Shown here piece by piece: positions 802 to 37,109 of a stretch of DNA of 64,000 bases. The DNA is from Streptomyces sp. NBC_01445 (GTDB lineage Bacteria; Actinomycetota; Actinomycetes; Streptomycetales; Streptomycetaceae). The stretch spans positions 4,960,001-5,024,000 of the forward strand of contig NZ_CP109485.1 in assembly GCF_035918235.1 (NCBI RefSeq). Reading direction: 5' to 3'. The notes beneath the pieces were generated by a model that was given only the letters and a program-made list of their open reading frames with translations, ran no database searches and had not been told where the DNA came from. Each line of letters begins with the position of its first letter. Within the stretch, counting starts at the first letter, position 1. The position numbers and the translations under genes are program-made.

Positions 802-1665
802 ATGAGCACGTCGCAGGGCCGTCGAGGCCACGTCACAGGCCTTCCCGAATGGGACCGCTGCGCGGTCATGGGAGTCGTCAATGTGACGCCCGATTCCTTC
901 TCCGACGGCGGCCGCTGGTTCGACACGACGGCCGCCGTGAAACACGGCCTCGACCTGGTCGCACAGGGCGCCGACCTGATCGACGTCGGTGGCGAGTCGA
1001 CCCGCCCCGGCGCCACCCGCGTCGACGAGGACGAGGAGCTCAAGCGCGTCATCCCCGTCGTGCGGGGCCTGTCCTCCGAGGGCGTCGCCGTGTCCGTGGA
1101 CACGATGCGCGCCTCCGTGGCCGAGCGCTCCCTGGCGGCCGGTGCCTCTCTGGTCAACGACGTCAGCGGCGGCCTCGCCGACCCGGCGATGATCCCCGCC
1201 GTCGCCGCGGCGGGCGCCCCCTTCGTCGTCATGCACTGGCGCGGCTTCCTGGAGGGAGGCAACGTCAAGGGCACGTACGAGGACGTGGTCTCCGAAGTCG
1301 TCGCCGAGCTCCACGCGCGCGTGGAGGCCGTCATCGAGGGCGGCATCGCCCCTGAGCGCATCGTCGTCGACCCGGGCCTCGGCTTCTCCAAGGAGGCCTC
1401 CCACGACCTGAAGCTCCTGGCCCACCTGGAGGAGCTGCGCGCGCTCGGCCACCCCCTGCTGGTCGCCGCGTCCCGCAAGCGGTTCCTCGGCCACGTCCTG
1501 GCCGGCGAGCAGGGCGCCCCGCCCCCGGCGCGCGAGCGCGACGCCGCCACGGCCGCCGTCTCCGCCATCGCGGCCCACCAGGGCGCCTGGGCCGTCCGCG
1601 TCCACGAGGTCCGCGCGACGGCCGACGCGGTCCGTGTCGCCCGCGCCGTAGAGGGAGCCCAGTGA
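802..1665 (+). CDS. folP: Dihydropteroate synthase FolP
   Basis: This enzyme condenses dihydropterin pyrophosphate with p-aminobenzoate to give dihydropteroate in folate synthesis and is the target of sulfonamides. All family signatures are present in 287 residues: NVTPDSFSDGG near residues 27-37 (pyrophosphate loop), DVGGESTRPGA near 61-71, DPGLGFSK near 190-197 and SRKRFLG near 224-230. The ATG at 802 follows a GAAGG sequence. The stop overlaps the GTG of the next gene (GTGA), so the two are translationally coupled. It is the first biosynthetic gene of a rightward folate operon with folB and folK. Length matches the usual 270-290 residues. Confidence 0.97.
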   Translation: MSTSQGRRGHVTGLPEWDRCAVMGVVNVTPDSFSDGGRWFDTTAAVKHGLDLVAQGADLIDVGGESTRPGATRVDEDEELKRVIPVVRGLSSEGVAVSVDTMRASVAERSLAAGASLVNDVSGGLADPAMIPAVAAAGAPFVVMHWRGFLEGGNVKGTYEDVVSEVVAELHARVEAVIEGGIAPERIVVDPGLGFSKEASHDLKLLAHLEELRALGHPLLVAASRKRFLGHVLAGEQGAPPPARERDAATAAVSAIAAHQGAWAVRVHEVRATADAVRVARAVEGAQ

Positions 1666-26857: not shown

Positions 26858-27118
26858 TCAGCGTGTGGCGTACGGCAGCAGTGCCATCTCGCGGGCGTTC
26901 TTGATCGCCGCGGCGATCTGGCGCTGCTGCTGTGCCGTGACCCGGGTGACGCGACGGCCGCGGATCTTGCCGCGGTCGGAGAGGAACTTCCGCAGCAGGT
27001 CCGTGTCCTTGTAGTCGATGTACGTGATCTTCGCCTGGTCCAGAGGATTGGGGCGGGACTTGGCCGGCTTGCGGTCAGGCCTGCCGACGGGGTCGCGGGC
27101 AGGGTTGCGCGGGGGCAT
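26858..27118 (-). CDS. rpsR: Ribosomal protein uS18, zinc-independent paralogue
   Basis: The 86-residue S18 protein has the core [20 protein letters not shown] and [20 protein letters not shown] and no cysteine. It is the last gene of a leftward set of alternative ribosomal proteins (bL33, bL31B, CobW-like, S18). In Streptomyces this set replaces zinc-binding versions when zinc is scarce and is controlled by Zur. The ATG directly abuts the CobW stop. The ribosome should still carry the main rpsR encoded elsewhere. Confidence 0.95.
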
Positions 27119-28375
27119 TCAGATCTCCAGGAGGGTGTCGAAGGCGCGGGGCAGGCCCTTCCAGGACTCGCGGCCCGCGCCGTACTCGGCGTCGGTGAGC
27201 AGGCAGGACTCGAGGATCTCGGCGAGGCCGTCACGGTCGAGTCCGGGTGACGTGAAGACGAGGTGCTGGCAGCAGTCGCCGTGCTGCGGGTGCCAGTCCA
27301 GGGCGGCGGCCGCGCGGCGGACCGACGGGGCCATGTCCCAGGCGGCGTCCGGCAGGGACACCAGCCAGGGCCCCGCGCTCTCGACGCACAGCGTGCCGCC
27401 CGCCGCGTCCCAGTGCAGGAGCGTGTCGGGGCGGTCGGCGAGCCAGAACCGGCCGCGGCTGCGGGCCGCCGCGCAGGTCAGATCCTCCAGGGCCGCGTAG
27501 AGCCGCTCCGGGTGGAACGGCCGGTCGCGGTGCCAGACGAGCGTGGAGACACCCGCCTCGTCCGCGTCCGCGGGCAGCAGCGCGCACGCCGGATGCTGGG
27601 CCGCCGCTGCCGCCTCCACGTCGAATCCGCCGAGCGCGGCGGCCGCCAACTCGCCGTGGCCGATCGGGACTTGGCGGGCTGTCGGGTGGAGCTGGGCGAG
27701 CAGGGCCCGGTCCGCGTCGTCGGCCTCGGGGGAATCCACGAGGGCGAGCACGGGAGCGTATTCGAGCTGTCTGGCCCAGGTGTCGGCGATGGTGCGCTGG
27801 TCGGTGGCGGCCGTCGCGAGTCCGGCGTCCATGAGGTCGTCGCCGTTCCCGAGGTACGGCAGCAGGAGCGCGGGGTCCACGCCGGTGATGACGCCGGTGA
27901 CGGAGAGCTCGGGCCCGCCGTGCGCGGCGATGACCTCGACCATCGCCTTGGGCTCGACGGAGTCCCACAGTTCGACGATCGCGATGGAGGTTCCCCTTGC
28001 CCGAGCGGAGCCGAGAGCTTGGATGGGGGTCCCCCCTGCCCGAGCGGAGCCGAGAGCTTGGATGGGGGTCCCCCCTGCCCGAGCGGAGCCGAGAGCTTGG
28101 GGGAGGGTGAGCCCGGCGTCCGCGAGCCACTCCAGTTCGGGGACGAGGTCCTCGCGCAGGGCGCAGCACGCGCAGTCGTTGACGAGGGGCGCCTCGCCGG
28201 TGCCGAGGACTCCGGTGGCGTCGCGCAGGGTCCGTACGACTGTGCCCTGTACGGCAGTTGAGAGGTCGTGGTGGAGCGCGACGCTGCCCGGGACCGTGAC
28301 GAGCAGTTCCTCGACGGCGGCCCGGCGCGCTTCCGCGTGCAGGCCGCCGACGATCACTACGGGCAGCCGGGTCAC
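27119..28375 (-). CDS. CobW-family (COG0523-like) protein of the zinc-starvation cluster, with an internal repeat expansion
   Basis: A 418-residue COG0523-type protein; relatives are GTPases thought to deliver zinc. It starts at GTG 28375, overlapping the bL31B stop (GTGA). The metal motif CACC (Cys68, 70, 71 in [11 protein letters not shown]) is present, as are [20 protein letters not shown] and a C-terminal CobW-C region ([15 protein letters not shown]). The N-terminal [15 protein letters not shown] lacks the usual GxxGxGKT Walker A, so GTP binding by the normal P-loop is doubtful. Residues about 92-130 are three in-frame copies of a 13-residue unit ([13 protein letters not shown]), absent from the family core; see the repeat entry. 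The product may still be functional because all copies keep the frame. Confidence 0.88.
27984..28100 (+). repeat. Three 39-bp tandem copies inside the CobW gene
   Basis: Units at 27984-28022, 28023-28061 and 28062-28100 share CCCGAGCGGAGCCGAGAGCT; copies 2 and 3 are identical and copy 1 differs at a few bases. The period is a multiple of three, so the frame is kept. The unit resembles a short palindromic repeat that I know from Streptomyces intergenic regions (GGGG...CCGAGAGCTTGGGG type), here inside a gene. Confidence 0.92.
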
Positions 28376-28802: not shown

Positions 28803-28830
28803 AGTATATGAAAATGAATCCCGTTTCCAA
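28803..28830 (-). promoter_or_regulatory. bL33 promoter with Zur-box-like operator in the spacer
   Basis: Leftward -35 TTGGAA (28830-28825), 16-bp spacer, -10 TATACT (28808-28803), then 6 nt to the ATG. The spacer contains TGAAAATGAATCCCG (28809-28823), which matches the actinobacterial Zur consensus TGAAAATGATTTTCA at 11 of 15 positions, including the whole left half. Zinc-loaded Zur bound here would block RNA polymerase. Confidence 0.75.
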
Positions 28831-28922
28831 AACGATCCGGGTCACAGGGCCAGGGGGCCGCGCGACCTTCGGGTCACGGCTCCGGGTCACGGGGCCACAG
28901 CCAACGAGAGAGGTACGTCGTT

Positions 28923-29159
28923 CTGTCCGCGCACTGCATGCTGACCGGGGCCGCCCCCGGCTTCGGCAACCGCATCTCCCACTCCCACCGGCGCACGTCA
29001 CGCCGCTTCGACCCGAACGTCCAGCGCAAGCGCTACTGGCTGCCGAGCGAGGGCAGACACGTGCAGCTGCGGCTGAGTGCCAGGGCGATCAGGACCGTCG
29101 ACGCGATCGGCGTCGAGGCCGCCGTCGCCAGAATTCGTGCCCGTGGAGTGAGGATCTGA
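28923..29159 (+). CDS. rpmB: Ribosomal protein bL28, zinc-independent paralogue, probable CTG start
   Basis: A 78-residue bL28: the conserved start [20 protein letters not shown] is in frame, followed by [20 protein letters not shown]. The only canonical start, ATG 28938, would remove the conserved SAHC residues. The codon before SAHC is CTG at 28923, with GAGAGAGG 9 nt upstream, so initiation at CTG is likely. It has one Cys only, not the paired CxxC zinc site. It is divergent from bL33 and its stop overlaps the uS14 start (TGATG). Confidence 0.88.
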
Positions 29160-29464
29160 TGGCCGAGAAGAGCAAGATCGCGAAGAACGAGAAGCGCCGG
29201 AGGGTCGTCGCCCGATACGCCGCGCGCCGGGCCGAGCTCAACGAGATCGTGCGCCGGCTGTCGTCCACCGACGCGGAACGGGCAGCCGCACAAAGGGAGT
29301 TGGCACGTCAGCCGCGGGACGCGAGCGCCACACGCGTACGCAACCGCGACAGCGTCGACGGCCGGCCGCGCGGATATCTGCGCGCCTTCGGCCTCTCCAG
29401 GGTGAACCTGCGCGAGCAGGCGCATGCGGGCTTCCTGCCCGGGGTGCGGAAGTCTTCCTGGTGA
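29159..29464 (+). CDS. rpsN: Ribosomal protein uS14, zinc-independent (long) form
   Basis: The 101-residue long S14 form without cysteines: [20 protein letters not shown] at the start, [20 protein letters not shown] and [17 protein letters not shown] at the end. The short zinc-binding uS14 is normally in the main ribosomal protein operon; this copy replaces it under zinc limitation. It overlaps the bL28 stop and has no separate ribosome site, so it is translated by coupling. Confidence 0.96.
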
Positions 29465-29539
29465 CGTGAGGGGCGGCTGGTAGCTTGCTGCGGGCCGGGC
29501 CACGTACCGGCAGTCACATCCGCAACGTAGGGGGATCTT

Positions 29540-32279: not shown

Positions 32280-32326
32280 TCCGTCAGGATACGGGCGAGT
32301 CGGGCATATGGGTTGGGGTGGTTCGG

Positions 32327-32401
32327 TTCGGGGGTTGGTTCGGGGGTTGGTTCGGGGGTTGGTTCGGGGGTTGGTTCGGGGGTTGGTTCGGGGGTTGGTT
32401 C
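32327..32401 (+). repeat. 12-bp tandem repeat after the DUF2786 stop codon
   Basis: Six exact copies of TTCGGGGGTTGG (32327-32398) and a partial seventh that runs into the stop of the DUF2786 gene (32400-32402). The array occupies most of the 120 nt between that gene and the FUSC gene. The G-rich strand contains regular GGGGG and GG runs and might form quadruplexes. Confidence 0.92.
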
Positions 32402-33752: not shown

Positions 33753-34682
33753 ATGACCACACCTGCCGTGCGCCTCACCGCCGTACGCCGCGAGTACCGC
33801 GGCGTCACCGCCCTCGACGGGGTCGACCTCGACTTCCACGCCGGGACCTTCACCGCCGTGATGGGGCCCTCGGGCTCCGGGAAGTCGACGCTCCTCCAGT
33901 GCGCCGCGGGCCTGGACCGTCCGACGTCGGGCACCGTCACCGTCGCCGGGACCGACCTCACCGGACTCGGCGAACGGGCACTCACGCTCCTGCGCCGGGA
34001 CCGGATCGGTTTCGTGTTCCAGTCCTTCAATCTACTGCCGGCGCTCACCGCCGCGCAGAACGTGGCGCTCCCCCTGCGGCTCGCCGGGCGGCGGCCCTCG
34101 CGCGCGGAGGTGCGCGAGGCGCTGGGCCGCGTGGGCCTCGCCGAGCGCGCGGGGCACCGCCCTTCACAGCTCTCCGGCGGCCAGCAGCAGCGGGTGGCCC
34201 TGGCCCGCGCCCTGATCACCCGGCCGGCCGTCCTCTTCGGCGACGAGCCGACGGGCGCCCTCGACACGACAACCGGACGTCAAGTCCTCACCTTGCTACG
34301 GGAGCTGGTCGACCGGGAGGGTCAGACGACGGTGATGGTGACCCACGATCCGGTGGCCGCTGCCCGCGCGGACCGGGTGGTGTTCCTGGTCGACGGGAGG
34401 GTCGTGGACGAGCTTCTGGCGCCGGACGCGGCGACGGTTGCTGCACGGATGACGGGACTGGAGGGGCTTGAGGGGCTGGAAGGACCGGAAGGGCTTGAGG
34501 GGCGTGCAGGGCTTGAAGGGGGTGCGGGGCTTGGAGGGGGTGCGGGGCTTGGAGGGGATGCGGGGCTTGGAGGGGGTGCGGGGCTTGGAGGGGGTGCGGG
34601 CGGCACGTCCACCGGCATTCGTTCCGTGTCCGCCGGTAACACCGACAACGCGTCGCTCGGCAAGGAGGTAGACGCATGCTGA
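33753..34682 (+). CDS. ABC transporter ATP-binding protein (LolD/MacB type) with a Gly-rich repeat tail
   Basis: The first 230 residues are a normal LolD/MacB-type ATPase: Walker [10 protein letters not shown] at 39-47, Q-loop FVFQSFN, signature [15 protein letters not shown], Walker [13 protein letters not shown]. It pairs with the FtsX-type permease that follows with a 7-nt overlap. After the domain come about 75 residues of Gly/Leu-rich repeats (GLEG then GLGGGA units) encoded by tandem DNA repeats, then a short unique end. Homologues normally stop near residue 235. The ATG has GAGG directly upstream. The pair may act as a mechanotransmission or export complex. Confidence 0.9.
34456..34610 (+). 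repeat. Imperfect G-rich tandem repeats in the ATPase tail
   Basis: First GGGGCTTGAGG-like units, then at least four 18-bp units of GGGGCTTGGAGGGGGTGC type with few differences. All are in frame and encode GLEG/GLGGGA. Copy number is likely to vary between strains. Confidence 0.85.
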
Positions 34683-36946: not shown

Positions 36947-37100
36947 GAGCGCTCGGGTGAGAGCGCTCGGGTGACGAGGCGGCGGGTGCCGGGCGCAGCG
37001 GATGCCGGGCGCGGCGCAGGCCGGGCGCAGCGCAGGCCGGGCGCAGCGCAGGCCGGGCGCAGCGCAGGCCGGGCGCAGCGCAGGCCGGGCGCAGCGCAGG
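36943..37100 (+). repeat. Two tandem arrays downstream of the permease gene
   Basis: Two exact 14-bp copies of GTGAGAGCGCTCGG (36943-36970), the first containing the permease stop codon, then seven copies of a 16-bp unit CCGGGCGCAGCGCAGG (36989-37100; the first two diverged, the last five exact). A 16-bp period cannot keep a reading frame, so this array is non-coding. Confidence 0.92.
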
Positions 37101-37109
37101 CCGCCCTTG

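Follow-up and report, generated by a model that had tools for sequence, protein, structure and literature searches.

The best-known palindromes that encode protein are those of Rickettsia and Wolbachia. The Rickettsia palindromic elements (RPE) and the Wolbachia elements are described, in the parts of PMC2996958, PMC2229807 and PMC3767692 that deal with them, as palindromic and as lying both between genes and in frame within conserved genes, in non-structured or solvent-exposed parts of the proteins. The Streptomyces element reported here is also palindromic, and is found both in frame in genes and outside genes (25 and 47, respectively, of 104 classified copies). The gene pheT is a host in both systems (on the RPE and Wolbachia side according to a figure legend in PMC3767692, and in Streptomyces in genome G122). 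RPE are, however, approximately 100-150 bp long and belong to the Rickettsiales, whereas the Streptomyces element is approximately 45 bp long and has a free-living host, a CG-led target, in-frame arrays and a net swap of 39 bp. Furthermore, a passage of PMC3767692 has the rickettsial orthologues of a host gene each carrying the insert at the same locus, whereas the Streptomyces element has empty sites within a species.

Two other groups of repeats are comparable. The Streptomyces element resembles the REP/RAYT repeats in being a short imperfect hairpin whose copies in a genome can run to tens, with many in non-coding DNA; it differs from them in having no GTAG/CGTC tag, in not always being accompanied by a Y1 transposase, and in often lying in frame within genes. 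MITEs with readable frames (ERIC, Correia and others) are likewise non-autonomous, dispersed and sometimes fused in frame, as noted in a section of PMC2229807, but the Streptomyces element is smaller, loses target bases without duplicating any, and has ends that are not inverted copies of each other. A literature search by topic and by sequence words did not find the element described; subscription papers were mostly beyond reach, and an earlier description is possible. Because there are filled and empty sites within one free-living species, direct tests could be made of the insertion reaction, of the target it uses and of what it does to the protein. If the swap rule set out below is right, it explains how mobile repeats can get into genes and leave them intact, and offers a concrete path by which non-coding DNA becomes new protein sequence.

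The element was encountered in a gene of the CobW/COG0523 family (27119 to 28375, minus strand) in the window, by which we mean the whole stretch of 64,000 nucleotides analysed. The gene encodes 418 amino acids from a GTG start assigned from homologues, the reading frame remaining open upstream of it. It is set among ribosomal protein genes, named by eye from their translations: on one side S18 (26860 to 27118, minus strand), and on the other L31 (28372 to 28626, minus strand; its end overlaps the assigned CobW start), L33 (28632 to 28796, minus strand) and the divergent L28 and S14 (approximately 28940 to 29465, plus strand, in that order). Between the divergent ribosomal genes there is an AT-rich stretch at about 28806 to 28835, found by eye, which we take to be a possible Zur box. 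The cobW gene is a probable zinc-starvation gene. The usual Walker A motif is GxxxxGKT; no recognisable version of it was found in the host protein, which has a different stretch of twelve residues at that place, and an alignment of 40 sequences shows no variation at G11, L12, H13, A16 and R17. The CobW_C domain scores above its cut-off. Against the family of the ribosome-hibernation recruiter MRF (NCBIfam NF047431, cut-off 375 bits) the host protein scores 178 bits and its element-free homologue P0006 193.9 bits, both below the cut-off. The gene and its neighbours resemble the mycobacterial MRF gene cluster as presented in part of PMC7174638, and the host protein may be a P-loop-less relative of MRF.

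An earlier note, made from the sequence alone, described three 39-bp units that add some 39 residues in frame between the CxCC region and a particular stretch of twelve residues, and this description is confirmed. The whole insert occupies 27983 to 28105 on the minus strand, as do all its parts. It consists of the left six base pairs of the element, CTCCCC, which are present once only (28100 to 28105), then unit 1 (28061 to 28099), close to the consensus of 184 copies, unit 2 (28022 to 28060), identical to unit 1, and unit 3 (27983 to 28021), which differs from unit 1 at three positions. Tandem Repeats Finder reports period 39, 3.0 copies, 96% matches and a score of 215 over 27983-28100. The insert is thus 123 bp in place of 6 bp of the element-free orthologues (such as CGGCTC, Arg-Leu codons), a net addition of 39 codons, and the first copy taken by itself gives a net +39 bp against these orthologues. 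The cobW frame is open across all three units, and Streptomyces codon bias is seen on both sides of the insert (0.30 and 0.36). A search of solved structures with profile A1 gave 0 matches at E 0.01.

The consensus of the element is CTCCCCCAAGCTCTCGGCTTCGCTCGAGCAGGGGGGACCCCCATC, approximately 45 bp. In an alignment of 184 copies, conservation extends over about 45 bp and is near background outside, except for a preferred A at -2 and C at 0. The earlier note likened the unit to GC-rich intergenic palindromic repeats, and it does belong to a dispersed Streptomyces palindrome: 25 loci of its own genome match at E<0.001, the cobW insert included. A copy within three mismatches is present in 120 of 200 sampled Streptomyces genomes, as against 0/200 for the reversed control, and copies number from 0 to 55 per genome among the 200. 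Nine plasmid records match the element, all from Streptomyces, and a search of phage records gave no match. The palindromic character claimed for the insert stands in part. A single unit forms an imperfect hairpin, but the three-unit array folds as a single strand no better than dinucleotide shuffles (DNA z 0.97; RNA z -0.18). Among 152 distinct copies, three stem positions vary in pairs (3-35, CG 103 and TA 26; 11-28, CG 128 and TA 14; 16-23, GC 134 and AT 11), so that a one-strand hairpin appears to be maintained.

The ends of the element are CTCCCC and CCCATC; the outer hairpin arms are at 3-7 and 31-35, so that a tail lies outside the hairpin. The element has no terminal inverted repeats. 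In an ABC permease gene of G030 and G034 (L310, L311), the place of the L069 element is taken by another hairpin, which is shorter but ends in the same way (CTCCCCCGGACTTCGTCCGGGGGGACCCCCA), and there may therefore be a wider family of such elements. It is worth adding that at L227, L235, L240 and L241 the 45-bp element is enclosed in a longer repeat whose ends are inverted (about TAGGGCC..TTGGATCA and TGATCCAA..GGCCCTAG), which by eye looks like a separate MITE.

CobW homologues were examined as the best 120 of 3257 found. Six of these carry the element: P0001 (NBC_01361) has two copies, P0002-P0005 have one each, and P0010 has a degenerate form. The other 114 are without it in the loop, 109 of them fitting the search pattern and five missing it, with no insert visible in the printed sequence. 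At the DNA level, 111 sequences were compared (the window and 110 loci, one of which, L031, is the window's own). The spacer is plain in 100 of them and slightly longer in two; the window and L031 account for two more; L094 (CB01635) carries a single copy; the loops of L093 and L095 are longer and unrelated; and four went unread. The cobW region is matched in 261 of 392 Streptomyces genomes, and among the matches listed only G000 and G180 span the insert. G180, a genome of the same species, has a single copy at the cobW site, which has ACCTCC in common with unit 3. Over 4182 bp G180 is identical to L094, and is therefore probably the same strain, CB01635, rather than a second one. At this one site copies number 0, 1, 2 or 3, the last three values being found in close relatives. 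The loops of P0041 and P0051 (L095, L093) contain unrelated insertions of 11 and 14 residues, which suggests that the CobW loop may be a permissive site.

Element-free relatives were sought among the fetched loci for 27 hosts; 19 had one and eight had none. Compared with the best such relative, the net difference is +39 bp (13 codons) in 16 of the 19, with approximately 45 bp standing in place of 6 bp. The exceptions are L069 and L383 (+36, a 42-bp variant) and L078 (+51, in a doubtful alignment), and among lower-scoring relatives two gave +42 for L074 and two gave +36 for L082. The comparison for L379 depends on a distant relative (score 143). The coding comparisons were aligned by codon, and their multiples of three are partly by construction; differences at the DNA level include +38 and +56. 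In L067/L271, L342/L434 and L356/L436 the six flanking bases on each side are identical. No target-site duplication is seen at the element sites, about 6 bp being lost instead. At 14 of 18 sites (CobW, L085 and the 16 hosts) the first two bases of the lost 6-mer are CG, against 3 of 36 flanking 6-mers (1/18 upstream and 2/18 downstream; Fisher p 5e-7). The swap may be of 4 to 7 bp, because target and element frequently share both their first and their last C. In L067, L077 and L359 a core one base longer still nets +39, so one border of the element is evidently not fixed. The earlier note had reasoned that a length divisible by three keeps the frame. This holds for the net 39 bp of each event, but the event is not a pure insertion, the element of about 45 bp replacing about 6 bp.

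Presence of the element differs within the species. Between the window's own genome and G180, 17 loci are shared, CobW included, and L078, L082 and L087 are also filled in both. Five own-genome copies are missing from the matching G180 site (L062, +38; L067, +39; L071, +39; L085, +39; L072, +56), the difference at L072 falling inside a larger repeat. L067 is the only locus that could be polarised: two relatives from other species are also empty there, so that the copy there is a gain. The L062 copy (1507-1576, minus strand) lies inside a sequence resembling a cobalamin riboswitch, for which the empty allele (L273) scores 31.7 bits in Rfam (cut-off 31.5) and the filled allele 24.2.

The explanation that we consider very probable is that a dispersed, non-autonomous palindromic element entered cobW by exchanging 6 bp for 45 bp, and that its copy number then changed. 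Entry would date from the common ancestor of a small clade of Streptomyces. At insertion, approximately 45 bp would take the place of approximately 6 bp, frequently CGNNNC preceded by a C, presumably by means of a specific enzyme, and because the net 39 bp is a whole number of codons, the gene can survive in any phase or orientation that lacks a stop. The cobW site would be a loop that tolerates other insertions, where copy number later moved in 39-bp steps (1, 2, 3), either growing in the window strain or being lost in G180; the longer host protein is presumably made and functional. Mobile DNA appears on this evidence to have been turned into protein repeatedly. The earlier note's suggestion of a mobile intergenic repeat becoming protein is thereby supported, since presence differs within the species and many genes carry the element in frame, the step to protein being deduced from the reading frame.

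A more specific proposal is an active site-specific replacement element, whose enzyme would find CCGNNNC-like sites, remove about six bases and insert a 45-base hairpin. It would act as a natural inserter of in-frame peptides, core genes like pheT and asd included, and one reaction would give the 39-bp step in both insertions and arrays. We put this forward tentatively, as something that may well prove wrong; if true, such an element is a standing source of new protein sequence, at thirteen codons per event.

It is unlikely that the element is instead REP-like and moved as single-stranded DNA by a Y1 transposase (IS200/IS605 or RAYT), the loss of about 6 bp being a by-product of joining. The conserved imperfect hairpin with its paired changes fits such a route. 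So do the Y1 matches in 11 of 15 element-rich genomes compared with 4 of 15 element-free ones (Fisher p 0.027), these being hand-picked sets with kinship and genome size uncontrolled. However, four of the 15 rich genomes (G026, G163, G006 and G210) have no Y1 match, the match is weak or broken in G143 and G119, and the consensus of the 184 copies contains no GTAG or CGTC tag. Y1 transposase chemistry is not known to involve a loss of target bases. A Y1 transposase as sole mover is not supported, and is neither proven nor clearly required.

Arrays like that in cobW occur elsewhere: three units and a partial one in Asd (aspartate-semialdehyde dehydrogenase) of G036, four in a P450 of G213, four in a glycosyltransferase fusion of G366, and three in non-coding DNA of G347. 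The register is 39 bp, apart from a single unit in G036 and another in G347 that lack 3 bp, and it is not an unbiased measure, the arrays having been found through likeness to the cobW array, which favours a 39-bp register. G087 has one unit with a degenerate second one 57 bp further on. The coding arrays are open in the frame of the host gene; the codon score of the left flank in Asd is weak (-0.08), probably owing to the position of the insert near the gene start. All three CobW units have a G that is found in approximately 7% of copies overall, and local duplication within the array is therefore likely. The P450 units alternate, as if two-unit blocks had been doubled. The observed array junction would also result if a new element entered an existing copy at its left end, but the shared G in cobW and the alternating P450 units appear to favour local duplication.

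These same features, with the identity of units 1 and 2, could be taken to indicate an ordinary coding minisatellite, produced by local slippage in cobW and unrelated to the dispersed repeat. They do show that local duplication contributed, but we regard this origin as very unlikely. The single-copy form at the cobW site is already the dispersed element, and the element-free orthologues have no precursor. Moreover, the terminal C runs would favour slippage by 35 bp, whereas among the loci collected, same-strand copies less than 150 bp apart are spaced 39, 81, 84, 85, 94 and 133 bp, and none 35 (a small set found by likeness). A minisatellite origin of the first cobW copy is contradicted.

Copies inside coding sequence were identified from the codon bias of both flanks, at 104 of 105 loci in four genomes (one gave no hit; in three of the genomes the loci classified are those among the matches listed). 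Of these copies, 25 are in frame within genes and none lies out of frame; 47 are non-coding, 31 fall at an edge and 1 is between opposite strands. The same rule applied to 416 shifted positions gives 214 in frame, 10 out of frame, 154 at an edge, 33 non-coding and 5 between strands. Copies in genes are therefore fewer than expected, yet the element is not excluded from genes. The in-frame rule is strict, and CobW, IucC (L074) and NUDIX (L082), judged by eye, are outside its in-frame class. Hosts identified by family match include dGTPase, a sialidase-type protein with a laminin-G domain, an ABC permease, a UbiA-type protein, IucA/IucC, TnpB, DUF4032, NUDIX, a response regulator and an MBL-fold hydrolase. 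PaaN, GlnE and PheT are above cut-off, and LacZ-like and anthranilate-synthase-like hosts below it; the family search gave no match for hosts L078 and L338. At L077 an IS605-type tnpB gene carries the element in antisense orientation and in frame.

We consider it most improbable that the insert is a functional protein module kept by selection. The frame is indeed preserved across several copy numbers, and one sense phase, of a type with a characteristic stretch of fourteen residues, is the commonest (10 of the 25 in-frame copies). But nearly all the listed homologues do without the insert, and the same element occurs in unrelated proteins, in both orientations and several phases, including antisense; the loop also accepts the unrelated insertions noted above. 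A reading of the insert as a conserved domain is ruled out by the element-free orthologues. Finally, although the stretch is repetitive and GC-rich, we give practically no credence to an assembly or sequencing artefact, the genome being in two contigs, with one and two copies at the same site in other strains and similar arrays in other genes and genomes. The window also contains other tandem arrays, at 34491-34600, 36988-37103 and 32311-32401, with periods of 18, 16 and 12 bp.
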